A stretch of 64,000 nt of DNA, taken from positions 21,765,375-21,829,374 of the forward strand of contig CAIIXF020000005.1 in assembly GCA_903813345.2 (NCBI GenBank), read 5' to 3'. Below the pieces are notes generated by a model. The model made no database searches. It saw nothing but the letters and a program-made list of their open reading frames with translations, and was not told where the DNA came from. The number at the start of each line of letters is the position of its first letter. Positions within the stretch are counted from its first letter, which is position 1. Source of the DNA: Owenia fusiformis (lineage: Eukaryota > Annelida > Polychaeta > Sabellida > Oweniidae). Made by a program: the position numbers and the translations under genes. Positions 28,298 to 62,820 of the stretch are shown here, one piece after another.

Positions 28298-31277
28298 CTA
28301 GACTTTGGAAATTGAACAAGTTCAATTTCAGACTCCAGATTTAGACTTTTTTAAGCTGAGTCATCCAGAATAAGCCGAGTCATCCAGAAAAAGATGGATG
28401 GATGGATGAAATAGGAAGGAGGGATAGGATAGAATAGGAAGGAATGATAGGATAGAATAGCAAGGAAGGATATGATAGGAAGGAAAGGATAGGAAGGATA
28501 GGACAGGATAAGATGGGAAGGATAGGATAGAATAGAAAGGAACGATGGGATAGAATAGGGTAGAATAGGGAAGTAGGATAGGATAGAATAAGAAGGAAGG
28601 ATAGGATAGGAAGGAAAAGATATGAAGGAAGGAAAGATAGGAAGGAAGGATAGATAGGAAGGATAAGATAGGAAGGATGGATGGAAGAATGGATGGATTT
28701 TTCAACATTTTCTTCGCTACTCTTGACTTTCTATCTGGATACCATCAGATCGATTTTTCTCGAAATTTAAAAACGCCATAACTTTAATACCGGAAGTCGG
28801 ATCGAAATTTGGTTTGCAGATTAGGATTCCTTCCTAATTCATAACTCATACGTTAAATTTGGAGATTTTTTTATTTTGACCTACTTTTCGGACACCATAT
28901 CTAAAAAGTGGGTCAAAATACTCTTAGACGGCAAAAGGCTAACACTATTAGCACACTCTTTGCTACATGTATACACAATTTCGAAGAATATAATTAAAGT
29001 GTAGTGTCAGAATGGCAAAAATAAGGAAAAACTTTGAATTTGACCTAGATTTTGACCTAGGCATTTTGGTATCCAAATTTTGAAGCTAGATGGCTTTTGA
29101 GGTTCCATTCTTTTAAAAGCTTTCATTATATTTAGCTGAACTCAGTCTATATTTTGTATTTTTCACTTCAAAAAAATCTTTTTTCCCATTGACTTAACAT
29201 GGGCACCAAATTTAGCGATTTTTGAGCTTTCAAAACGCCATAACTTCTGAACCGGAAGTCTGATCCAAATTTGGTTTGCAGCTTCGGATTCCTGAGATCA
29301 TTCTACACTTATTTCATAACTCACATGTTCAATTTGGAGAACTTTTTGTTCTGACCTACTTTCCGGACGCCATATCTCAAAATCGGTAACAGTAATCAAG
29401 AATCTGATGGCACACTATGAAAGGGCTGTTTCTAAGCTACATGATGAAAAAAGACAAAGTTATTTCGATAAATAGTGACGAAGATAATAGACAGAAGGTT
29501 GAAAATGTAAGACTTGACCTAGTTCTTGACCTTTGACCTAGATTAAAAATTGACCCAATTTCCGAGAAACTAGATACTGGACCTAAATTGACCATGTACA
29601 GGTCTTGACTCAATGTCTTCTAGTTATTAAGAAAACGTGTAGAGAAAAATAACTAGATTGGTGAAATTGAACAAGTTCAATTCAAGACTCCAGATTCCAT
29701 TTTTTTATAAAATGATTTTGACATCTGATATAGATGAGAAAGTGAAATTTAAAGAAAATATTCATGTTAATCACAACTTTAAAAGCAAAATTTGATCAAA
29801 ATTAATAAAATTGACCTAGATTTTGACCTTGACCCTTAGCACTCAAAATTTTACTGAATTTTTGATGATTGGCATTGATTACCATTGACTTAACATCAAG
29901 TTGCTACATTGGTGGCCGACGGTAGGGATTTTCTAAAATTTCAAAAGGCCATAGCTCCTGAACCGGATGTTTGATTTCAAATTTGTTTTCAGATTCAGAA
30001 TCCTTAGAAAATTTCCTATTCAGATTTTGACCTCTGATATTAATGAAAAATGAGAAAATTAACGGTCCCGTAGACATGCCATCAGGGTACCATCATATCA
30101 TTTTTTGAAATTTCAAAATGTGTTAACTCCTGAACCGGAAGTCGGATCACAATTTCGTTTTCAGATTTAGAATCCTGAGCAAATTTCCTATTAATACCAG
30201 GCTTGATAGATTTGAAACACTTTTAAATTTACCATTAATTAATTAATTAAATTAAATTAATTCGTAAAATTTTCATCAAGACATACATTGAGCGAACTGT
30301 TTGAAATACTTAGAGGAACTTAGAAAATAATTCATTAAAGTAAATATCAAAGATAAAAAAGAAAATTGAAAATTTGTGAAAATAAAAAAATTGACCTAGA
30401 ATTTGAACTTTGACCTAGATAAAAATTTGACCTAATTTCCCAGAAACTAGGTCACATACCCTAACTGACTATGTAATTAGATTTACCCTAAACCTTCTAG
30501 TTATTGAGAAATCGTGCTAATAAGAATAAGAATAAGAACTAGATTGGTGAAATTGAACAAAAGAACAAAGTTCAATTCAACTTTTTATCTAAAAACAATT
30601 TTTGAGATCTGATATTTATGAGAAAATGATTGTGACTTCTGATATTAATGAGAAAATGAAAAAAAATATTGGTCCCGTAGACATAACATGGGGTTACCAT
30701 CATTAATTTTGGTGGCAGCAGTGGGATATTTTTCGAGATTTCAAAAGGTCATAACTCCTGAACCGGAAGTCGGATCTCAATTTCGTTTTCAGATTCGGAA
30801 TCTTGAGAAAATTTCCCATTAAGATATTACAAATTTTGATAGATTATGAACATTAAGAAAATTCAACTTTTTTTTATAGTCGAATTTCTCAAAATTGGTT
30901 AAAGTTATCAAAACACGAATTGGTACACTAAAAAGCACTCTTTCTTAGCTACACAATGAACAATGAAAAAAAAATTGAGAAAAAATATTAAATCATAACA
31001 AAGATAATTGACAATTTGTAAATTTGACCAAGCTTTTGACCTTTGACCCAGATAAAAATTTGACCTAATTTTCCAGAAACTAGGTCACATACCTAAACTG
31101 ACCATGTAAACAGATTTACCCCAAGTCTTCTAGTTACTGAGAAATCGTGCTAAGGAGAATAATAAGAATACAGGCAAAAGCAATAGACTCCAGATTTTCA
31201 ATCTGGAGTCTAATAATAATAAAGAAGAAGAAGAATACTGGCAAAAGTAATAGACTCCAGATTTTCAATCTGGAGTC
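28298..31277 (-). mobile_element. Helitron-like array H5, inverted, three units
   Basis: On the minus strand the outer 3' end reads STIR ATCTGGAGTCT, hairpin GAAATTGAA-CTTG-TTCAATTTC, then CAAAGTCTAG followed by T. Two more 3' ends of the same kind lie inside, at 29653-29656 and 30539-30542, each CTAG followed by TTATT or TTCTT. The 5' edge has two copies of a perfect hairpin (31184-31212, 31251-31279). TAA flanks both sides (28295-28297, 31278-31280). The interior has 'ttgacctttgacctag' repeats and a GGATA microsatellite. No Rep/helicase frame. Confidence 0.72.
28391..28700 (+). repeat. (GGATAGGAA)-type microsatellite
   Basis: About 310 bp of irregular GGATA/GGAAG units inside the terminal unit of H5. 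The opposite-strand open frame (Leu/Ser/Pro/Phe-rich) is a simple-repeat artefact. Confidence 0.92.
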
Positions 31278-31279
31278 TA
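31184..31279 (-). repeat. Duplicated terminal hairpin head of H5
   Basis: Two identical hairpins, TAGACTCCAGAT-tttca-ATCTGGAGTCTA (12-bp perfect arms, 5-nt loop), lie 67 bp apart, separated by 'ataataataaagaagaagaag'. The arm matches the subterminal inverted repeat next to each H5 3' end. The H3 array has the same design with TAGGAGGCCCC arms. Confidence 0.85.
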
Positions 31280-48533: not shown

Positions 48534-49181
48534 TATTATGTTTTTAATATTATTTATTATTATTATTTTTTTATTTATTTATTATTTACTAATGAAAGGT
48601 ACAAGTATACAAAAAACATAATACAATACAATACTAGGAACAGCAACAGCAACAGGTTGTGTAACACTTACATCTTTCTAATCAATATTTCAAAGTTAAA
48701 TAAAAACTCAAAATTTGGACGGTCTCCCTTTTTATATTTGCTTATAACATTATGTGCCACTGAAATAACTACATTAATTTTGTGATCATTTGTCCCTATC
48801 AATTTTTCTGTTGGACTAAGATCAATATTTTTGTTAAATTTATCTTGACAATATTTTTTCACCAATTCCCAAATCTGTTTAATATGTGGACACTCAACAA
48901 AGAAATGCTTGTGTATGTCTCTTAATTTACATTTTTCACATTCATTATCATCTTTCTTTTTCATCTGATACAGTAGTTCATTTGTTGGGTATATTTTATA
49001 AATTATCTTATAATAAAGGGACCTAAGTCTTGGCTCTTTCAGACATTGAACTGTTCTAAATAACAATTTCATATCTATGTCACCCTCTTCCCTCCATTTT
49101 TCAGGAATATTAGGTAGTTTTGTTTGATTTTTGATTATTATACTTTTATAGCTTTTTAATTTTGCTGTTGCTATAACAATA
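48534..49181 (-). pseudogene. L1/Tx1-like LINE, 3' part (antisense)
   Basis: Read on the minus strand from 49181: IVIATAKLKSYKSIIIKNQ, then MKLLFRTVQCLKEPRLRSLY, CEKCKLRDIHKHFFVECPH and IKQIWELVKKYC (the C-x2-C...H-F-F-x-E-C zinc-binding segment after the RT). It ends EILIRKM-stop near 48668, followed by a TA/A-rich tail to about 48534. It continues the same ORF2 found at 61540-62820; the 12.35 kb between them is an insertion. As non-LTR ORF2 it would be the RT/endonuclease protein. This copy is dead. Confidence 0.78.
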
Positions 49182-49184
49182 TTA

Positions 49185-49290
49185 TTAGGAGGCTCCTGCA
49201 GGGGGGCCTCCTATAGATTTTATAGATATTATTTATTCTTTATTAGGAGGCCCCAACAGGGGGCCTCCTATTAATTTTATAGATATTATT
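49185..49290 (+). repeat. Duplicated terminal hairpin head of H3
   Basis: The first block reads 'ttaggaggctcctgcagg' then 'ggggcctccta'. The second is a perfect hairpin, TAGGAGGCCCC-aacag-GGGGCCTCCTA (about 49243-49269). They are separated by TA-rich spacer. The GGGCCTCC arm matches the sequence beside each H3 3' hairpin (subterminal inverted repeat). This head is absent at the internal unit starts 50541, 57884 and 60030. Confidence 0.8.
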
Positions 49291-52200
49291 ATTTATTATT
49301 TATTATTATTATTTATTCTTCTCTGCACTTTTTCTCTTACTTCTAGCTAGATTTCAACTATTTGCTATATGAACCTACTAGGGACCTAGGTTGAACTTAC
49401 CGGGAAAGGAATTTTTATCTAGGTCAAGGTCAAAGGTCAAAATCTAGGTCAAATCAAAGTTTTTTTTATTAAAGTTTCTCAGATTTCAAAAAACGGCAAA
49501 AATCGGTCATTTTTCAACTTGCTTCAAATGAACCAGAATTTTTTTTAAAAATCATCTACAAGATCTCAGGAACTCAAATATGTCCTTTGGTTGACCTTCG
49601 GTGACCTTCGAAAGGTAAAAAAAGTTGATTTTTCAAATTGATTTTCTGGATTCAAATTTAGGTATATTTGATCCCAAAGGACCCACTGAGGTCTAAAAAA
49701 GTAAAATTTACAAGGTCAAAGGTTAAGGTCATCAAACTAAATCACAAACTGTGTTTTCCAAGTTTCTAAGTTTTGGTGACTACAAATCAATATTTTCATG
49801 ATATATATTCCTCTATAGGTTCTACACATATTAGCAATTGACTATTTATTAAAATTATGTACCAGTTTTGAGATATTAGAACTCAAAAACTGAAAAAAGG
49901 TCAAATTTCGAAACTTTGCAAGACTAAATTTCAACTTGCTCTAAATTGACCAAACTTTTTCTAAAAAGCATCTACAAGATCTCAGGAATCCAAATCTGAC
50001 CTTACCTTTGACCCTTGACCTTTGGTTGACCTTCAGTGACCTTCGGAAGGTAAAAAAAGTTGATTTTTTAAATCGATTTTCTGGATTCAAATTTAGGTAT
50101 ATTTGATCACAAAAGACCTACTGAGGTCAATTAAAGTAATATTTGCAAGATCAAAGGTCAAGGTCATCAAATTAAATCACCAACTGTGTTTTCGAAGTTT
50201 CTAAGTTTTGGTGACTACAAATCAATATTTTTTTCATGAAAGTCAGGATATATATTCCTCTATAGTTTCTACACATATTAGCAATTGACTATTTATTAAA
50301 ATTGTGTACCAGTTTTGAGATATTAGGACTCAAAAACTGAAAAAAGGTCAAATTTCCAAACTTTTCAAGACTAAATTTCAACTTGCTTCAATTGACCAAA
50401 CTTTTTTTTAAAAATCATCTACAAGTTGCCTGGTGTTAGTATATGACCCTAGATTTGAGATTTGACCTTTGGCTGACCTTCAAAATGTCAAAAACACCTA
50501 CAGGGCCTCCGTAAGATTGCTTGCAATCTTAAATCTCTAGTTATTGTTTATTCTTCTCTGCACTTTTTCTCCTACTTCTAACTAGATTTCAACTATCTAC
50601 TACCTACTAGGGACCTAGGTTGAACTTACCGGGAAAGGAATTTTTATCTAGGTCAAGGTCAAAGGTCAAAATCTAGGTCAAATCAAAGTTTTTCTAAGTT
50701 TCTCAGATTTCGTCCTCATACTTCATTATTTCTTGCGATGAATTGAAATGTAACTAGATATAAGCATTCCCTACAAATTACTCCCTATATGTTCGGGGTA
50801 ATTTTTTACCGTTTTTGGGATAATTGACGTCAAAAAACGGTAAAAATTGGTCCTTTTTCAACTTGCTTCAAATTGACCAATTTTTTAAAAAAAATCATCT
50901 ACAAGTTCTCAGGAACTCGAATCTGACCTTAGTTTTGACCTTTGACCTTTGGTTGACCTTCAGTGACCTTCGAAAGATCAAGAAAGTTGATTTTTCAAAT
51001 TGATTTTCTGGATTCAAATTTAGGTATATTTGATCACAAAAGACCCACTGAGGTCTAAAAAAGTAAAATTTGCAAGGTCAAAGGTCAAGGTCATCAAATT
51101 AAATCTCAAACTGTGTTTTCTAAGTTTCTAAGTTTTGGTGACTACAAATCAATATTTTTTCATGAAAGTCAGGATATATATTTCTCTATAGGTTCTACAC
51201 ATATTAACAATTGACTATTTATTAAAATTGTGTACCAGTTTTGAGATATTAGAGCTCAAAAACTGAAAAAAGGTCAAATTTCGAAACTTTTCAAGACTAA
51301 ATTTCAAATTGCTTCAAATTGACCAAATTGTTTTTTAAAACTCATCTACAAGTACTCAGGAACTCAAATCTGACCTTACTTTTGACCTGTGACCTTTGGT
51401 TGACCTTCAGTGACCTTCGAAATGTCAAAAGTTGATTTTTTAAATTGATTTCCTGGATTCAAATTTAGGTATATTTTTTTTTATTTATTTTTTTATTTAT
51501 TTAAATCATATACTATTTGATCCCAAAGGACCCACTGAGGTCTAAAAAAGTAAAATTTGCAAGGTCAAAGGTCAAGGTCATCAAACTAAATCATAAACTG
51601 TGTTTTCTAAGTTTCTAGGTTTTGGTAACTACAAATCAATATTGTTTTCATGAAAGTCAGGATATATATTCCTCTATAGGTTCTTCACATATTAGCAATT
51701 GACTATTAATGAAAACTGTGTACCAATTTTGAGATATTAGAACTCAAAAACTGAAAAAAGGTCAAATTTCGAAACTTTGCAAGACTAAATTTCAACTTCA
51801 CGGGTAGTATTTGAAGCCCCGCTATGATTGAAAAGTCGCGAGCAAGTTCCCGCTGAAATCGCGAGCATTGCCCTGTTTATTTGTATCACTTTGGAAAATG
51901 AACCAAAAGGATGAAAATACTTATTACCGTTCTTTGATACTCCAGCGAAACTTTGAAAACAGATATATTTGACAAAAAAATGACATGAAAAATGATTATT
52001 TTTTACTTGCATGAAGGAAAGGGGCGTCAACATGCACGTTTGCATGATTTACTGTTCATATATTACCTTTATCGTTAAAATAAAGGCGATAAATACGATT
52101 TACATACTCCATAATAAATATCGGATCAAGATGGTCTGTATTGATAAGTTACTGGACAATGACACCTGCCATGGGGGTCGAAATACATTATTAGAGGTGT

Positions 52201-52567
52201 TCCAGTGGCCCTGCTGAAAAAATGAAGAGGCCCCGCTGAAAACATGAGGAGACCCCGCTGAAAACACGAGCAAATTTCACGACTACCCGCTTCGATCACG
52301 AGGAAAGCTTCATCATTATTCCATGAATATAGTGAGCTTCTTTATATGAACGTACACGAATGAGCAAGTAATTAACGTATTAATGACAACCACATAACAG
52401 ATCATTCTATGGCAACATTACAAATATTTCTTCTTCAACTTCAGGCAGTCTAATCCATCTGTCAGCGGCATGATCAAATTTTTATATGTAATTAGACTTT
52501 GTACGTTTTGGAGTTAAATGTACATTCTACATAATTAACTATTCCAAGGATTATACTTCTGAAGACA

Positions 52568-53172
52568 CATATATTTCATTGGTTTCTTTGTCCGACCGTT
52601 CATTCGTGCGTGCATTCGACCGACCGTTCGTTCGTTCGTGCGTGCGTTCGTCCGACGGTCCGTTCGTTCATGCATGCGTTCATCCGACCGATTGATCGTT
52701 CGTGCGTGCATCGCCCAATCATGCGTTCGTGGCAGCATTCGTCTGACCGTCCATTCGTTCGTTCGTTCATGCGTGCATCCGTTCATGCGATTGTCCGTCC
52801 GTTTGTGTGCACATGCGTTTGTCTGACCGTCCGTTTGTGCTTGCTTTCGTCTGACTGCCTTTCTTTCGTGGGTTCTTTCGTTTAGCCGTCCGTTCGTCCG
52901 TGCGTGCTTTCGTTCAAACGTCCATTCATGCGTGCTTTCGTCTGTTCGTCCTTTTTGCGTTCGTTTGTGTGTTCGTTCGTGTGTGCGTTCATTCGTACGA
53001 TTGTTTGTAACTACGTTCTTGTGTGCGAGGGTTCGATCTTTTGTAAATTGTTTTCTTCTATCTTTCCTTCATGCGTTCTTTTGGCTGCCTATCCGTTCGT
53101 TTGTTCATTCATTTTTTTCGGCTGTTCTTCTGTCCATCCGTGCGTTCTTTCCTCGTTCGTTTGTTCGTTTGC
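52568..53172 (+). repeat. Degenerate (CGTTCGTTCGTG)n tract
   Basis: About 600 bp rich in 'cgttcgttcgt', 'cgtgcgttcgtc' and 'cgaccgtccgt'. It is irregular, with no fixed period. It produces Arg/Ser/Val-rich open frames on + and Arg/Thr/Asn frames on -. None is a gene. Confidence 0.93.
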
Positions 53173-53214
53173 AGGATTTCATCAAAATTTGTCTTTCCAC
53201 TGCCATATGAAAGA

Positions 53215-55790
53215 ATGTAAATAATCAAGAAAGCAAGCAAGGACGTGAGGAAGTAAACAAGCAACGAAGTAAGTAATTGAGTTAGCAAGCAAGTAAAGAA
53301 GGAATGGAGGAAGTAAATCGAAGAAGTGAAGGTGGGAGTTATATAAGTAAGCAGGGAAGGAAAAAAGGAAGGAAGGAGGGAAGGAAAGAAGCAATGAAGG
53401 AAGGAAGGAAGCAAGGAAATGAGAAAGCGATGAAGCAAGCAAGGAAGCAACTGAGGAAGAAAGGAAGGAAGGAACCGAGGGAGCAAGGAAGGAACAATGC
53501 GAGTAAAGAATTAAGCAGGGAAGCTAGCAAGTAAGGAAGCGAGGAAGAAAGGAAGCCAGAAAGCAAAGAAGGAAGGAAACGAGGAAGCAAGGAAGGAAGG
53601 AAGCAAGCAAAGATGCAAGGAAAGAAAGGAAAAAAGCAAGGAAGTAAGTAAGAAAGGAAGGGAGAAGGCGAGAATGCAGGGAAGCAAGGAGGGAAGAAAG
53701 CAAGGAAGAAATGAAGCGAGAAAAGAAGGACACAATGAAAGAATGAAGGAAACGAGGAAACAAGGAAGGAGGAAAGGAGGAAGTGAGGAAGGAAGGAAGC
53801 AAGGAAGGAAGGAGGGAAGTGAGGAAGGAAGGAAGCGATGAAGCAAGGAAAGAAGGAAGCGACGAAGCAAGGAAGGAGGAAAGATGGAAGCGAGGAAGCA
53901 AGAAAGGAATGGAGCGAGAAAGGAAAGACGCGGGGAAAAAACGAAAGAAGCGAGGAAGCAAGGAATGAGGAAAGAAGGAAGCGAGGAAGGATGGAAGCAA
54001 GGAAGGAGGGAAGTGAGGAAGGAAGGAAGCGAGAAAGCAACGAAAGAAGGAAGCGAGGAAGCAAGGAAGAAAGCGGGAAAGTAAGGAAGGAAGCGAGGAA
54101 GCATGGAAGGAGGGAATGAAGCAAGGAAGGAAGGAAGGAAGTGAGGAAGAAATTTGTGAAGGAAGCGAGGAAGCAAAGAAGGGGGAAAGAAGGGAGCGAG
54201 TAAGGAAAAAAGCAAGGAATGAAAGAGGGAAATGAGGAAAGAAGGAAGCGAGGAAGCAAGGAAGGAAGGAAGCGAGGAAAGAAAGAAGCGAGGAAGCAAG
54301 GTAGGAAGTGGGGAAGGAAAGATTGCGAGGAAGGAAGGACGCGAGGAAGCAAAGAAGGAAGCAAGGAAACGAGAAAGCGAGGAGGGAAGAAAGCGCGGAA
54401 GCAAGGAAGGAAGGAACTGAGGAAGAAAGAAAGGACGGAAGCGAGGGAACAAGGAAGGAATGATGTGAGGGAGCAAGCAAGGAAGGAACTGAGGAAGCAA
54501 GGAAGGAAGCAAGGAAGGGAACGAGGAAGGAAGGAAGCCAGAAAGCAAAGAAGGAAGGAAATGATGAATCAAGGAAGGAAGGAAGCAACCAAAGACACAA
54601 GAAAGGAAGGAAGGAAAAAAGCAAGGAAGGAAGTAAGTAACGAAAGAAGGAAGAAGGCGAGAAAGCAAGGAAGTAAGGAGGGAAGGAAGCAAGGAAGGAA
54701 TGAAGGGACAAAAGAACAACGCGAGGAAAGAATGAAGGAAACGAGGAAGCAAGGAAGGAGGAAAGAAGGAAGTGAGGAAGGGAGGAAGCAAGGAAGGAAG
54801 GATGCAAGTGAGGAAGGAAGGAATCGAGGAAGCAAGGAAAGAAGAAAAGCGAGGAAGCAAGGAATGAGGAGAGAAGGAAGCGAGGGAGGAAGCAAGGAAG
54901 GAATGAAGCAAAAAAGGAAGGACGCAAGGAAAAAATGAAGGAATCGAGGATGCAAGGAAGGAGGAAAAAAGGAAGTGAGGAAGGAAGGAAGGAAGGAAGC
55001 GAGGAAGGAAGGAACCAAGGAAGAAAGCAAGCGAGGAAGCATGGAATGAAGCAAGGAAGGAAGGAGGAAAGGAAGTGAGGAAGAAATTTATGAAGAAGGC
55101 GAGGAAACAAAGAAGGAGGAAAAAAGGGAGCGAGGAAGGAAAAAAGCATGGAAGGAAAGAGGGTAGAGAGTGAGGAAGGAAGCGGGGAGGCAAGGAAGGA
55201 AGGAAGCGAGGAAGCAAGGTAGGAAGGAAGCAAGGAAGGAAAGATGCGAGGAAGGAAGGAAGCAAGAAAAGAAGAGGCGAGGAAGGAAGCAAGGAGGGAA
55301 GGAAGGAAGCGATGAAAGAGAGAGGCAAGGAAGCAAGGAAGGAAGGAAGCGAGGAAGGAAGGAAGCGAGGAAGCAAGGTGGGAAGTAAGAGAGGAAGGAA
55401 AGATGCGAGGAAGGAAGGAAGCAAAGAAGGGATGCAAGAAAGGAAGGAAGGAAGCAAGGATGGAAGGAAGAAAGCGAGGAAGGAAGGATGCAAGAATGCG
55501 AGGAAGCAAGGAAGGGAGGAAGGAAGCGAGGGGGAAAGCAAAGAAGGAAGCAAGAAAGAAAGGTGGGAAGTGAGGAAGGAAGGAAGCTAGGAAGGGAGGA
55601 AGCGAAGGAATGAAGTGAGGAAGCAAGGAAGGAATGAAGCAAGGAAGAAAAGAAGGAAGGAAGCGAGGAAGGAAGGAAGCAAGGATGGAAGGAAGCGAGG
55701 AAGGAAGGATGTGAGGAAGCGAGGAAGGAAGCCAGGAAGGAAGGAAGCGAAGAAGCAAGGAAGGGAGGAAGTGAGCAAGCAAGTAAGCAA
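53215..55790 (+). repeat. 2.6 kb polypurine (GGAAGGAAGC)n tract
   Basis: Nearly uninterrupted A/G on the + strand with scattered C, built from 'ggaaggaagcgaggaagcaa' variants. It has very long open frames on the minus strand (up to 766 codons, Leu/Pro/Ser/Phe only) and Lys/Glu/Arg frames on the + strand. They come from the repeat and lack any domain complexity. Such tracts can adopt triplex DNA and are prone to length change. Confidence 0.97.
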
Positions 55791-55984
55791 AGGAGATTGA
55801 TAAAGAAATAATATTTATAAACATTATTCTGACTAAATCATTTTATGTTGACCTAAACGCACGCTTATTCATGTATCTTACTGAATATCGACTTGTACTC
55901 AAAGATGGAACAGAGGGGACAGTTGCAATACAGAGAATACAGAATATTTCCTATGGACTATGTAGTAAGATCACATGATAAAAA

Positions 55985-56128
55985 ACGTTATACAACGATT
56001 TGAAGCGCAACATAGGATATATTATGCTCTCGATATGCTGTATTTCTACTTGATTTCATCTCGTGCCAATACAGATTTTTTGAGCACAATATATCCTATA
56101 TTGCATTTCAAATCATTCAATAACTTAT
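55985..56128. repeat. Imperfect palindrome, about 45-bp arms
   Basis: 'gatttgaagcgcaacatagg' continuing 'atatattatgctc' is mirrored by 'gagcacaatatatcctatat' and 'tgcatttcaaatc', with 'aacgttat' / 'ataacttat' extending it. The loop is about 50 bp. It lies inside the 5.47 kb element. Confidence 0.7.
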
Positions 56129-56237
56129 ATTACTTCAAATTATGAAAATGAGGTTAAATGTTTAACATTTCGTCCGATTTAATACTCATCACATTTCTCA
56201 GATGATCTTTCTTATTCTGTAAAATGGCATGGGAATA

Positions 56238-56626
56238 CAGGCCTGTCAACTTGGGAACACCTAACATGAGTGACTTGGAAATGTTGAACACCTTCCCTCT
56301 GAATGTGGACACCTTGGTCCAAATCTGAACACCTTGATCCAAATTTTGGGTAGGTACGAAAAATTTCGAACGTAATGCGTGACATATACGTGATTCGCGT
56401 GAAAAGTCCGAACGAAATGCGTACGTTTTTTTTTGGCGTTCGTAATTTTGCTGTGTAGACGAACTTTTTTAGAAATTTTTCTACAGAAATATTTTTGCTT
56501 GACAATTACCAGGTAAAATGCGTATTTGCGTGACATTTTCTGTCACGCAAAACTAACTGGCGTGACTTCAAATTCTTCAGCAAATGCGTGACAAATACGC
56601 AAATTGCAGGACAGTTGACAGGCCTG
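56238..56626. mobile_element. 389-bp MITE, CAGGCCTGTCAAC ends
   Basis: CAGGCCTGTCAACTT at the left is mirrored by AGTTGACAGGCCTG at the right. GGAATA is duplicated at 56232-56237 and 56627-56632. The terminal CAGGCCTG is itself palindromic. The interior has CGTGACAxxTACGTGA-like repeats and no real gene. Superfamily uncertain. Confidence 0.78.
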
Positions 56627-57883
56627 GGAATATGATACTGCAGTTTTCCATAACAACGTATCATAATATGAACTATATTAACAGTTGTGTTTGCTGTTAT
56701 TGAGAATTGTATTGACAAATAATGTAATTATCAAACTGGGTACAATAGTGGATCAAGGTGGGAACGAAAGTGGGAGATTTTCAGGGTATAATCGGGATTC
56801 ACTCCATTTTTGAGAGACACTTGCTCCTGTTTTCAGCGGGACCTCCTCATGTTTTCAGCGGGGCCTCCTCCTGATTTCAGCGGGATCTTTGCTTAAATTG
56901 CTCCTGCTAGAAGCGGGGCCTTGAGGGATATGATAAAATTTAAATATAAAATGTTCTGTAAAGCTTTAGGAAGTGAAACTCGGTACATCTTTATTCCATA
57001 TCACTATTGTTATTTCAACCACAGGACAACATCGTTCTTTACCAATAACGTATAGAAATATATAGATAAAGATTCAAAATGATACTTTCTCTCTTCAATT
57101 GGCAAATAACGAACCACAGAACGACCGTTCGTGATACATTTTTTCCAGCAGTTGCTTTTTTAGTCTCAATACCATGTAATCATTGGGAAAAATTAAAAGA
57201 AAACGTTTTGTAAATCATACAATTCAATTGCGACTTTTAATTCATAGCGGGGCTTTAGATACTACCCGTGAACTTGCTTCACATTGACCAAATTTCTTTT
57301 TAAAAATCATCTAAAAGTTCTCAGGAACTCAAATTTGACCTTCCTTTTGACCTGTGACTTTTGGTTGACCTTCAGTGACCTCTGAAAGGTCAAAAAAGTT
57401 GATTTTTCAAATTGATTTTCTGGTTTCAAATTTAGGTATATTTGATCAAAAAGACCCACTGAGGTCTAAAAATGTAAAATTTGCAAGGTCAAAGGTCAAG
57501 GTCATCAAACTAAATCACAAACTGCGTTTTCTAAGTTTCTCAACATTTTTGATTACAAATCAATATTTTTGGATGAAAGTCGGAAAATATATTCCTCTAA
57601 AGGTACTACACATATTAGCAATTAAATATTTATTATTAAAATTGTGCACCAGTTTTGAGATATTAGAACTCAAAAATTGAAAAAGGTCAAATTTCGAAAC
57701 TTTTCAAGACTTTTCATCTTGCTTCAATTACTAACTTAGTAACTTACTTAGTTAGTCAATAACTACTTAGTAACTAGCTGACTTAGAAACTGACTTAATA
57801 ACGATATGTTGACCATTGATTGACCATATAAGGCCAAAACGCCTACGGGCCTCCATAAGATTGCTTGCAATCTTGATCTCTAG

Positions 57884-60029
57884 TTATTTATTCTTCTCTG
57901 CACTTTTTCTCCTACTTCTAGCTAGGTCTGAGTTAACTCTTATATGCTCCTACTAGGGACCTTGAGTGAAATTGGCGGTAAAGAAATTTTTTATCTAGGT
58001 CAAGGTCAAAGGTCAAAATCTAGGTCAAATCAAAGTATTTTTCAAGTTTCTCGAATCCTGACACTACACTTCAATATTTTTGGCTAAGTTTTGCATACAG
58101 ATAGATATTAGTGTTCTATTAGTGTGAGCCTTTTGCCGTCTGGACAAATTTTGTTTAGATTTTGAGATATTGAAGGTCAAAAAAGGTCTTTTTCAAGTTG
58201 CTTCAAATTGGCCAAATTTTTTTTTAAAAAGCATCTACAAGTTCTTAGGATTCTAAATCTGACATTAGTTTTGACCTTTGACCTTTAGTTGACCTTCAAT
58301 GACCTTCAAAAGGTCAAAAAAGTTGATTTTTCAAATTGATATTCTGGATTCAAAGTTAGGTATATTATATCACAAAAGACCTACTGAGGTCTAAAAAGTA
58401 AAATTTGCAAGGTCAAAGGTCAAGGTCATCGAACAAAATCACAAACTGTGTTTTCTAAGTTTCTCAAAATTGGTGACTACAAATCAATATTTTTGAATGA
58501 ATTTCAGAATATATATTCCTCTGAAGGTTCTACACGTATTAGCAATTGACTGTCTATTAAAATTATGCACCAGTTTTGAGAAATCAGAGCTCAAAAATTG
58601 AAAAAAGGTCAAATTTCGAATTTTTTCGAACATGCTTCAAATTGACCAAATTATTTTTTTGAAAATTATCTACTAATTCTCACAAGTTCAAATCTGACCT
58701 TAGTTTTGACCTTTGACCTTTGCTTGACCTTCAGTGACCTTCCAAAGGTCAAAAAATTTGATTTTTTAAATTGATTTTCTGGACTAAAATTTAGGTATAT
58801 TTAATCACAAAAGACCGACTGAGTTCTAAAAAGGTAAAATTTGCAAGGTCAAAGGTCAAGGTCATCCAACTAAATCACAAACTGTGTTATCAAAGTTTCT
58901 CAAATTTGGAGACTACAAATCAATACTTTTGGCTAAAAGTCAGAATGTACATTTCTTTAAGGTTCTACACATATTAGCAGTTGATTAACTATTTTTTAAA
59001 TTTTGCACCAGTTTTGAGATATAAGAGCTAAAAAACTGAAAAAAGGTCAAAATTCAAAAATTTTCAAGGTCAAATTTCAACTTGCTTCAAATTGACTAGC
59101 ATTGCCAAAGGCGGTATTTTTTACTTATCTGATCTTGAATTATTACCGCCTTGTACAATCCATAACATCTCCACTGTTATTACGCTGAAATATTCAACGG
59201 TTTCCAGATTTCAATAATACCTACTCTATCAGGGGTATCGCGAAACCTTATTGATTGACAGATGTCGCGTGGACACGACGTGTGACTTCAGGCTGAATGA
59301 CCAATCAAAACGTTATCGGGTTGAACTGCATAAACAAAACAGACTTCCCATCTACGATTTGAAATTCAATGATCTGATCGAGTGTTTCTTTAGAGTTAGA
59401 ATATATTATGTAATTAAATGTACATTGGAAGGTAAGAGTCATTAATATAAATTAAATCATGCGATTCAATGTTGATTTAAAACTGATTTCGCGATAAAAA
59501 TGCACGAAGACTGTAGCGGATAGCGGGTCATGTTGTCGATCGGTGATTGAATCTCAGCCTACATGTTCAGCGATCGTTTCAACGTTTATTGTTGAAATCT
59601 TCTCACCTTTCGTTATCCGATCGATGCTCCGGCATCCACTAAACTCTCATTGATATTTATCTGATAAAATATTTGTATTTTCATGATGAATTCGTGCAAA
59701 ATTTGTTCGTGAAAAGTCCCTGTGAAAAGTGTACTTGTTTAGCTATTGCTGCAGGGCCGTCGTTGATTGGTCAAATTTTACCGACATAAACATTGAGTCG
59801 GTTTAGCACGTGGCTTTCTCATTTGTACAAGGCAGTCATAATAGAAATCAGGATAAGTAAAAGAGACCGACTTGGGCAAGGCTACAAATTGACAAAACTT
59901 TTTTTTAAAATCATCTATTAGTTGCCTGGTGTTAATATATGACCTTAGATTTGACCTTTGACTGACCTTCAAATTGTCAAAAACCCCTACAGGGCCTCCG
60001 TAAGATTGCTTGCAATCTTAAACCTCTAG
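57884..60029 (+). mobile_element. H3 unit 3, carrying a 788-bp MITE
   Basis: Starts TTATTTATTCTTCTCTGCAC after CTAG and ends in hairpin + CTAG (60026-60029). It has four body repeats with DR1-type 'aggtcaaaggtca'. A TIR element is inserted at 59097-59884. Confidence 0.75.
59097..59884. mobile_element. 788-bp TIR element with 9-bp TSD
   Basis: CAAATTGAC is duplicated at 59088-59096 and 59885-59893 and comes from the H3 body. The ends TAGCATTGCC and GGCAAGGCTA are inverted. About 60 bp of arm similarity includes 'ttttacttatc.tgat' and 'gccttgtacaa'. A 9-bp duplication is usual for Mutator-like elements. The interior is GC-richer than its host and a 64-codon frame (59251-59445) has no recognised motif. 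Confidence 0.82.
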
Positions 60030-61536
60030 TTATTCTTTATTTTTCTCTGCACTTTTTCTCCTATTTGTAACTAGATTCCAACTATCTTCTATATGAAACT
60101 ACTAGGGACCTAGGTTGAACTTACCGGGAAAGGAATTTTTATCTAGGTCAAGGTCAAAGGTCAAAATCTAGGTCAAATCTAAGTAGTTTTTTTCAAGTTT
60201 CTCGATTCCTGACACTACACTTCAGTATTTTTAGCTGAATTTTTGCATACAGATAGATATTATTAGTATTCTATTAGTGTTAGCCGTTTGCCGTCTTGAC
60301 AAATTTTGTCTAGATTTTGAGATATTGAAGGTCAAAAAAAGGTCAAAAAAGGTCTTTTTTCAAGTTGTTTCAAATTGACCAATTTTTTTTTAAAAAGCAT
60401 CTACAAGTTCTCAGGATTATAAATCTGACCTTAGTTTTGACCCTTGACTTTTGGTTGATCTTCAATGACCTTCGAAAGGTCAAAAAAATTGATTTTTCAA
60501 ATTGATTTTTCTGGATTCAAATTTAGGTAAATTTGATCATAAAAGATCCAGTGAGGTCTAAAAAAGTAAAATTTACAAGGTCAAAGGTCAAGGTTATCAA
60601 ACTAAATCACAAACTGTGTTTTCTAAGTTTCTAAGTTTTGGTGACTACAAATTGATATTTTTGGATGATAGATTGGATATATATTCCTCTAAAGCTTCTA
60701 CACATATTAGCAATTGACTACCTATTAAAATTGTGCTCCAGTTTTGAGATATTAGAACTCAAAAACTGAAAAAAGGTCAAATTTCAAAATTTTCAAGGTC
60801 AAGTTTCAACTTGATCTAAATTGACCAAACTCTTTTTTAAAACTCATCTACGAGTTCTCAGGATTCCAAATCCGACCTTACTTTTGACCTTTGACCTTTG
60901 GTTGACCTTCAGTGACCTCCGAAAGGTAAAAAAAATTCGATTTTTCAAATCGATTTTCTGGATTTAAATTTAGGTATATTTAGTCACAAAAGACATACCA
61001 GGGTCTAAAAAAGTAAAATTTGCAAGGTCAAAGGTCAAACTGTGTTTTTTAAGTTTCTCAGAATTGGTGACTACAAATCAATATTTTTTTTATGAAAGTC
61101 AGGATATATATTCCTCTAAAGGTTTTACATATATTAGCTATTGATTATCTATTATTAAAATTTTGCACCAGATTTGAGATATTAGAACTCAAAAACTGAA
61201 AAAAGTCAAATTTCGAAATTTTTTAAGGTCAGATTTTAACTTGCTCTTAATTGACCAAACTTTTTTTAAAAACCATCTACAAGTTATCAGGAGTTCAAAT
61301 CTGACTTTAGTTTTGACCTTTGGTTGACCTTGGAAGAAACCAGGTAACCAACTTCATAACTTACTTAGTAATTTACTTAGTTACTAACTTAGTAACTTAC
61401 TTAGTTAGTCAATATCTACTTAGTAACTAGCTGACTTAGAAACTGACTTAATAACCATGTGTTGACCATTGGTTGACCATATAAGGCCAAAATGCCTATG
61501 GGCCTCCGTAAGATTGCTTGCAATCTTGATCTCTAG
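60030..61536 (+). mobile_element. H3 unit 4 (last unit)
   Basis: Begins TTATTCTTTATTTTTCTCTG and ends 'gcctccgtaagattgcttgc' with hairpin and CTCTAG. Near its 3' end is a short 'ttacttagtaacttacttag' repeat (61350-61450) shared with unit 2 (57730-57800). The LINE resumes after TTA. Confidence 0.75.
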
Positions 61537-61539
61537 TTA

Positions 61540-62820
61540 TACATATTTTCATTGCTTTTGTGAACAATGGTTTTATTATACAATAAAGATTTTAACAAAT
61601 TATATTGCATTCTTAACTCTGGTCTTGGGCCTATGACATTTAAATTTCCTCAAACTCCTTTATTTTATCATTTTCATCAATAATATGTCTAAGTTTCTTT
61701 ATACCCCTTTTAACCCATTTTTCAAAATATATAACCTTTCTACCATACCTCAAACTGTTGTTATTCCATAATATATCATCATTGTTTAATTCATTATGTA
61801 AATCTTTATTGCCTAACCATTGTTTAACAAGTTCAACATAAAATGATGGCATTTCATCCTGTTTTAATTTTGGTTTCAACTCTGCATATTTTTTATATTG
61901 TAATCAAATATATCTACATGTCCCATTCTTTTTATAAAGTAAAGGAACATATGCTTCTAGCTTGACTCATAATTTTTTACATTTTTTATCCGTGATACCC
62001 ACACCAATAGTGCAGCACTTTGCACAGAAAAAATGTCAACCATATTTAACCCACCATTTTCAATGCTTTGTCTTAGTATTTTTCTTTTGATCCGTTTACC
62101 TCCATGATAATGCTGCTTCAGATTGAAGATGAACTTGTATAAAGCATTATTAATCTCTTTCAAGACCGAGTCAGGTGCCTTAAAAACCATTTAATAAATT
62201 TGTTAATTGAGATGCTACTAAGCTTTTCACTAAATTAATTCTGCCAACAATGGATAAAGTTCTGTGTGACAATTGATTAATTATCTTGTTCATTTTAGTG
62301 ATTTTTTTCCAGTTTTCTTGAATAGAAGCTGCCGATCCCCTGTTTCTAAAATGTACCCCTAAAATTTTCAATTTTGCATTTTTACCTAATTGCCATTTTT
62401 ATCCTGCAGGTGATTCAAGAGAGTTTTTATTTCTTCCTATCCACATTGCCTCTGATTTTTGCATATTCAGCCTTAATCCAGAGACTTTATAGAAATCATC
62501 AATTACTTTTAAGAGTTCAATTAAAGAGTCTTTTTTGACAAATACTGTTGTATCGTCAGCATATATTGTTAACTTAATTTCTTTATCATTTGGCAATTTT
62601 AACCCTTCAACGTTTTGATTTTGGCTTACTTTACAAGCAAACATTTCAGTAGCAATGATGAATATTATAGCACTCAATGGACACCCTTGTCTCAGTCAAG
62701 CCTCTAACCTAAACCATTCTGTGAAATACCCATTATTTGAACAGCAGCTACCTTAAATTGATTGATGATATTATTCAGTATACAGACATAGAAGATCTCC
62801 CAGGTGCTATAATTAGTAAT
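61540..62820 (-). pseudogene. L1/Tx1-like LINE ORF2, central RT part (antisense)
   Basis: Minus-strand order: INQFKVAAVQIMGISQNGLG, RQGCPLSAIIFIIATEMFAC, YADDTTVFV (RT active site), GLRLNMQKSEAMWIG, LSIVGRINLVKSLVASQLTN, KIKRKI-like RIKRKILRQSIENGGLNMVD, then KPKLKQDEMPSFYVELVKQW and MQYNLLKSLLYNKTIVHKS up to the break. These are the RT and thumb blocks of L1/Tx1-type LINEs. At least three frame breaks or stops separate the pieces (around 62700, 62400, 62190 and 61640), so it is decayed. The 5' end is lost at about 62820, next to a tRNA-like sequence. The 3' part is at 48534-49181. Confidence 0.78.

Follow-up and report, generated by a model that had tools for sequence, protein, structure and literature searches.

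The array and its host LINE

The window is the whole 64,000-nucleotide stretch of Owenia fusiformis DNA analyzed here (C5:21765375-21829374), and the genome searched was the 498-Mb assembly of 525 contigs. Four units of a Helitron-like element lie head to tail on the plus strand of the window. The first unit opens with two stacked 5′ palindromes (at 49187 and 49245). The outer 5′ module (49185–49244, plus strand) comprises TT, the palindrome AGGAGGCTCCTGCAGGGGGGCCTCCT (49187–49212), and an AT-rich TTATT microsatellite, and its left edge was taken from the empty site described below; the inner module (49245–49318, plus strand) comprises the second palindrome, AGGAGGCCCCAACAGGGGGCCTCCT (49245–49269), and a microsatellite. 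The body of unit 1 (49319–50540, plus strand) contains internal repeats of about 447 bp, a 3′ subterminal repeat of the GGGCCTCC type, a hairpin (50513–50530), and a CTAG end. Units 2 (50541–57883; hairpin, 57857–57874), 3 (57884–60029; hairpin, 60002–60019), and 4 (60030–61536; hairpin, 61510–61527) are also on the plus strand and have no 5′ palindrome, and the CTAG of unit 4 is flush with a LINE. The hairpin sequence AAGATTGCTTGCAATCTT has exactly four exact matches in the window, all on the plus strand, at 50513, 57857, 60002, and 61510; with two mismatches allowed, shuffled sequences contained a mean of 0.94 matches and reached four in 2 of 100 shuffles. The corresponding CTAG ends are at 50540, 57883, 60029, and 61536, and each of the three internal ones is directly followed by TTATT and the unit start TTCTCTGCACTTTTTCTC. 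An initial annotation had described these four head-to-tail termini, the recurring unit start, and the left edge at 49185; the termini proved exact in sequence, strand, and coordinates, the unit start recurs at all three junctions, and the edge agrees with the empty-site comparison.

The sequence CTAGTTATT occurs seven times in the window, compared with 0.60 expected from shuffles. Four of these sites are outside the internal junctions of the array, in or at the edge of a second array of another family (28298–31278, minus strand), and two of the four are the minus-strand ends of that array. The second array has two stacked 5′ palindromes of the AGACTCC type, at about 31278 and 31211, and three ends by a looser pattern (two by a stricter one), namely 29653, 28298, and a degenerate one; its hairpin is GAAATTGAAC..GTTCAATTTC.

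Two segments that the initial annotation had set aside, 51799–57270 and 59097–59884, appear by eye to be correctly taken as foreign inserts, splitting units 2 and 3, respectively. The ends of both were read by eye. The former has inverted ends CACGGGTAGTA and TACTACCCGTG, is flanked on each side by AACTT, and contains a large tandem repeat with an 8-bp base. The latter is bordered by CAAATTGAC on each side, a 9-bp duplication that would presumably suit a Mutator-like element. Its inverted ends are short and imperfect.

The array sits exactly inside the LINE, whose left part (48668–49184, minus strand) was recognized by a 134-aa ORF and the empty-site comparison, and whose right part (61537–62400, minus strand) was recognized by LINE matches, the empty site, and a 594-aa frame in another copy. 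Among the 23 LINE matches listed, the empty site CAATATTATTATACATATT was read in two copies, L038 (C4) and L039 (C3), and it is present in both; their flanks are 92–96% identical to those in the window. The occupied site is CAATATTA/TTAGGAGG...CTAG/TTATACATATT (slashes mark the insertion points), with nothing duplicated or lost. In L038, the 594-aa stop-to-stop frame, which contains YADD, crosses the empty site. The earlier proposal of a precise Helitron-like insertion that breaks the LINE frame at one array edge, with the frame taken up again at the other, is thus borne out.

Classification of the units

A complete unit opens with TTATT-AGGAGGCCC..GGGCCTCCT and continues through a microsatellite of TTATT into a body containing repeats of about 447 bp, and its 3′ end consists of GGGCCTCC or a near variant, the hairpin, and CTAG. 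Because this layout is the plan of HINEs (non-autonomous Helentrons), the units are HINE-like, non-coding elements. The 5′ subterminal repeat has an adjoining inverted copy (AGGAGGCCC..GGGCCTCCT), the 3′ subterminal repeat matches the 5′ one and is followed by a palindrome (GGGCCTCC then AAGATTGCTTGCAATCTT), and the microsatellite of the left module and the central tandem repeats are represented by the TTATT runs and the ~447-bp repeats. The unit bodies contain no ORF of at least 120 aa, and the ORFs listed at 53109–55824 belong to the foreign insert. There is no target duplication, and the insertion site can be read as A/TT or, by shifting, as T/T. The former reading is favored by the ATT ahead of the first palindrome at all 14 loci tallied and by the one true empty site, where the A belongs to the target. 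A canonical Helitron (Helitron1) was rejected: the 3′ CTAG agrees with CTRR and the A/T site is as expected, but the units begin with TTAGGAGG rather than TC and carry a 5′ palindrome.

The Helitron_like_N domain has 58 matches in the genome, of which 42 fall within open frames 1,400–3,400 aa long. Several of these occur together on single contigs, C13 and C515 among them, and C505 is another of the contigs concerned; this pattern suggests recently active Helentrons. The one frame examined (L044) contains Helitron_like_N, PIF1, Exo_endo_phos, and OTU domains, the make-up of a Helentron. No autonomous partner was recognized through its ends in the 14 kb read at L044, where the 5′ side is out of view and no 3′ end of the array type was found.

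Relationships among the four units

The units were compared over their last 900 bp, with the sequence of the foreign insert removed from unit 2. They are 78.7–83.6% identical to one another, and none of the four has its nearest neighbor within the array. The best match of unit 1 is a solo copy at C9:16.04M (95.6%), and those of units 2 (89.8% over 737 bp; C9_6.70), 3 (84.9%), and 4 (88.4%; C2:12.82M) are also outside the array. The outside preference is clear for units 1 and 4 and slight for units 2 (977 versus 921 bits) and 3 (1021 versus 951 bits), the lower scores being those of array mates. When 287 bp of foreign insert was kept in unit 2, its best match was still outside (84.0% over 624 bp; C9_14.08), with the same conclusion. 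In approximately unbiased (AU) tests, a clade of all four units was rejected (p = 1.77e-61), as were five of the six pairs (uncorrected p = 0.0125, 0.0379, 2.2e-6, 0.0194, and 0.0031); the pair of units 2 and 3 was not rejected (p = 0.379). The trees omit six long-branch units of 67, which the nearest-neighbor count keeps. Since five pairs were rejected and units 2 and 3 were not, the array holds, by these tests, at least three lineages.

These results bear directly on the mechanism that the initial annotation had placed first, rolling-circle replication failing to stop at the 3′ end, which finds no support here. The clustering of units within the array that it had anticipated failed for the four together and for five of the six pairs and is not rejected for units 2 and 3. 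The opposite outcome that it had named, units nearer to distant copies than to one another, was found for all four, with a clear margin in units 1 and 4 and a narrow one in units 2 and 3. Its alternative, serial insertion of separate copies, fits, and the landing sites extend beyond CTAG/TT to the TTATT microsatellite just behind the 5′ palindrome of an older element.

Arrays elsewhere in the genome

The genome contains 150 exact 3′ ends with 1–8 bases between the hairpin and CTAG, and a search for the junction CTAG/TTATT plus unit start gave 26 exact cases, including the three of the window. Among the 109 of the 150 ends that were examined, 47 are in same-strand clusters, and neighbors within 10 kb form 30 same-strand pairs and no opposite-strand pair (0.23 expected at random). 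One inverted unit, at C1:51.50M, runs counter to a fixed orientation.

In the 15 arrays examined that carry at least two 3′ ends of this type, the nearest neighbor is a member of the same array for 12 of 59 units (3.2 in shuffles; p = 0.0006): five in C9:14.08M, three in a trimer on C2, and two each in C8:14.70M and C9:35.64M. Local amplification is thus real but a minority process. The C2 trimer (C2:10679381-10685449; positions 81-6149 of L029, C2:10679301-10686300) consists of three 2023-bp units, identical throughout, whose boundaries coincide precisely with the element ends and each of which has a 5′ palindrome; the best other scored copy in the genome is 98% identical. It is plausibly a rolling-circle concatemer; exchange after a first dimer would also fit, and an assembly error is possible. 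The units of a concatemer should share one lineage, and every internal junction should carry a full 5′ end; both hold for the C2 trimer and neither holds for the window array. A regular array on C73 (positions 1099-8503 of L049, C73:26401-35100) has a period of about 1374 bp, six ends, and units 95–97% identical, and no 5′ palindrome was found within the 8.7 kb examined. This 5′-less array reflects later tandem amplification, turning satellite-like. At C9:14.08M, a 3142-bp duplication (98.1% identical) has its breakpoints inside units.

Stacked palindromes and nested elements

Stacks of 5′ palindromes occur elsewhere, with up to seven palindromes from three families (C6:40.05M), each after TTATT or a close variant. 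AGGAGG followed by AGACTCC was found at 52 places genome-wide and the reverse order at four, and a backward-pattern control gave none; the 52 are places rather than separate events, as several have a common spacer and some are on small contigs. A stack of mixed families cannot have arisen by slippage, which is therefore ruled out as the source of all stacks. Slippage is possible behind same-family stacks, such as the one-family pair of the window array itself.

When a palindrome is read as an opening bracket and a 3′ end as a closing one, the array on C91 gives (G(GG)G), balanced and family-matched. The right block of C6:35.37M, which lies behind four further 3′ ends, is balanced and family-matched as well, with the pattern (G(G(GG)(DD)G)G). 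The same is true of C12:16.10M, whose pattern is (G(GG)(G(DD)G)G) with one end left unlabelled by the script and assigned through its hairpin; this count omits a further candidate end, also without a label, 1.45 kb past the array. If the inner element of C91 is removed, the outer palindrome, the microsatellite, and the second body are collinear with a solo copy at C5:41.93M, from which they differ in microsatellite length and a few mismatches. This is direct evidence that, at that locus, the inner element landed in the TTATT microsatellite of the outer element.

The flanks were tallied at 14 of 26 loci; in the other 12, the layout was unclear or one edge was out of view. The last CTAG is followed by TT in 14 of the 14 and by TTAT in 12, and ATT stands ahead of the first palindrome in all 14; these loci were chosen with the left palindrome in view, and its presence there is not evidence. 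From these flanks on the two sides, a TTATT run would be expected to make a favorable target that is entered in one orientation. The brackets fall short in the window, with two palindromes for four 3′ ends, and over the 14 loci, with 33 for 51. Only two of the 11 loci with several ends are balanced (C12 and C91), and the other nine all have surplus 3′ ends; among 37 internal junctions, a palindrome is present behind CTAG in nine and absent in 28. Because of the surplus, palindrome loss or another step must be added to nesting. Stacks, being short direct repeats, may shrink, or arrays may move again from an inner palindrome.

Proposed history of the array

Here, we propose that the window array arose as a nest, through repeated self-insertion of non-autonomous Helentron-like (HINE) elements, a history to which we assign a probability of roughly 0.7. 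The first element would have entered the LINE at A/TTAT, and later ones would have entered TTAT targets borne by the resident elements, the candidates being the microsatellite that separates the 5′ palindrome from the body, the 5′-terminal TTATT, and the TTAT flank behind CTAG. Insertion into the microsatellite would stack the old palindrome ahead of the new one and place the old body right behind the new CTAG, and would therefore produce head-to-tail bodies resembling 5′-truncated units. The orientation would be locked because TTAT is asymmetric. Some stacked palindromes may have been lost later, or the array may have moved from an inner start, leaving two for four units. The enzyme was probably supplied by the Helentrons of the genome, and the presence of a Helentron with an endonuclease domain in the same genome favors self-insertion. 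Also in its favor are the different lineages of the units, the stacks here and elsewhere, the balanced brackets, the C91 dimer, the exact empty site, the TT and ATT flanks, and the same-strand neighbors. Counting against it are the shortage of palindromes, the pair of units 2 and 3, the units with neighbors at home, the C73 array, the partner ends not found, the inverted unit on C1, and possible slippage.

The main competitor is the transposition of an older mixed array into the LINE at once, from an inner 5′ end through three 3′ ends. Such a move would yield fewer palindromes than ends, as in the window (2 versus 4) and at nine of 11 loci, and would leave a single clean insertion in the LINE. 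However, queries over two of the three internal junctions gave no other place above 88% among the best candidates scored. For the first junction, the sole comparison is C5:31.77M, the one other exact TTATTGTTTATT junction, and it is just 87.5% identical over 891 bp, on which ground block transposition of a unit 1–unit 2 pair common to both loci was rejected. We consider such a move unlikely. Expansion of a smaller array by unequal exchange between repeats has precedents in the C9:14.08M duplication that breaks inside units and in the regular C73 array, and the 3′ tails of the window units alternate A-B-A-B (93% over 145 bp and 96% over 160 bp). Over a longer stretch, however, identity is 83.1% between units 1 and 3 and 81.6% between units 2 and 4, below their outside matches, and over the last 900 bp units 1 and 2 are no nearer to units 3 and 4 than to other loci, so that this origin is quite improbable.

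Birth as a concatemer, in which a rolling circle overran the 3′ end and one multi-unit product entered the LINE, would account for the head-to-tail junctions flush at CTAG and for the single insertion. For Helraiser, PMC4778049 describes both read-through and circles that are joined precisely. The pair of units 2 and 3 is compatible with one clade, and the three identical C2 units, whose nearest other scored copy is at 98%, resemble such a product. The four window units are nevertheless not one lineage, and the internal junctions do not have the 5′ palindrome expected where a circle closes and present in the C2 units. On these lineage tests and this junction structure, we reject a concatemer origin for the window array and give it very little credence, while units 2 and 3 alone could still be one lineage.

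Relation to known systems

Self-insertion is not new as an idea, having already been proposed for Fusarium Helitrons in the text available from PMC5148889. HINE or DINE-1-like elements, including the oyster Cg_HINE, as described in the accessible parts of PMC4067079 and PMC7492417, resemble the Owenia units in the 5′ subterminal repeat with its inverted copy, the microsatellite, the central satellite-like repeats, the 3′ subterminal repeat with a palindrome, and the lack of a target duplication and of a long ORF. In contrast to these, the Owenia units have a CTAG 3′ end and a site best read as A/TT, frequently form same-strand arrays, have stacked 5′ palindromes, and are without partner ends found. 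Proto-Helentron-Pi of Phytophthora, in the account given in PMC4067079, shares the 5′ TT, the 3′ CTAG, the A-T insertion, and the absence of a target duplication, a likeness in features alone; unlike the Owenia units, it is autonomous and about 14 kb long. In the sections of PMC5148889 on Fusarium FoHeli, multiple 5′ termini ahead of one 3′ terminus are put down to self-insertion, and the three copies found in tandem in Metarhizium are explained either by a rolling circle or by new copies entering the 5′ end. Owenia differs from FoHeli in having more than 100 ends, three interleaved families, an in-element repeat as the landing site, and several 3′ ends per array. Plant centromeric arrays (Xiong et al. 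2016, as cited in PMC12628747) are likewise tandem Helitron units, often with several 5′ ends and a single 3′ end, and are attributed there to rolling-circle amplification, whereas the Owenia arrays have several 3′ ends and 5′ ends gathered at one side. Tandem TE dimers in Drosophila (McGurk and Barbash, also as cited in PMC12628747) arise from repeated insertion at a preferred site, the same route as that proposed for the Owenia nest, in an account that concerns TEs generally and not Helentrons in particular. Helraiser forms circles and reads through its 3′ end, according to the passages concerned in PMC4778049. In a limited part of the open literature, we found no description of a microsatellite landing site inside Helentrons.

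A broader and more tentative proposal is that the 5′ microsatellite might serve as an orientation-locked landing pad for the whole group, with nested brackets recording the order of insertion, composites with multiple starts and stops (AGGAGG plus AGACTCC, at the 52 places) moving as new elements, and some nests amplified in a satellite-like manner; we regard this as possible, with the odds somewhat against it.

Head-to-tail Helitron arrays are often taken as a sign of rolling-circle concatemers. The window array and others examined are better read as nests, and the number and family of 5′ palindromes relative to 3′ ends provide a simple test of nest versus concatemer. The C2 trimer is a candidate for a real concatemer in the same genome, so that both routes can be compared directly, and the arrays suggest a possible path from a transposon nest to satellite DNA.
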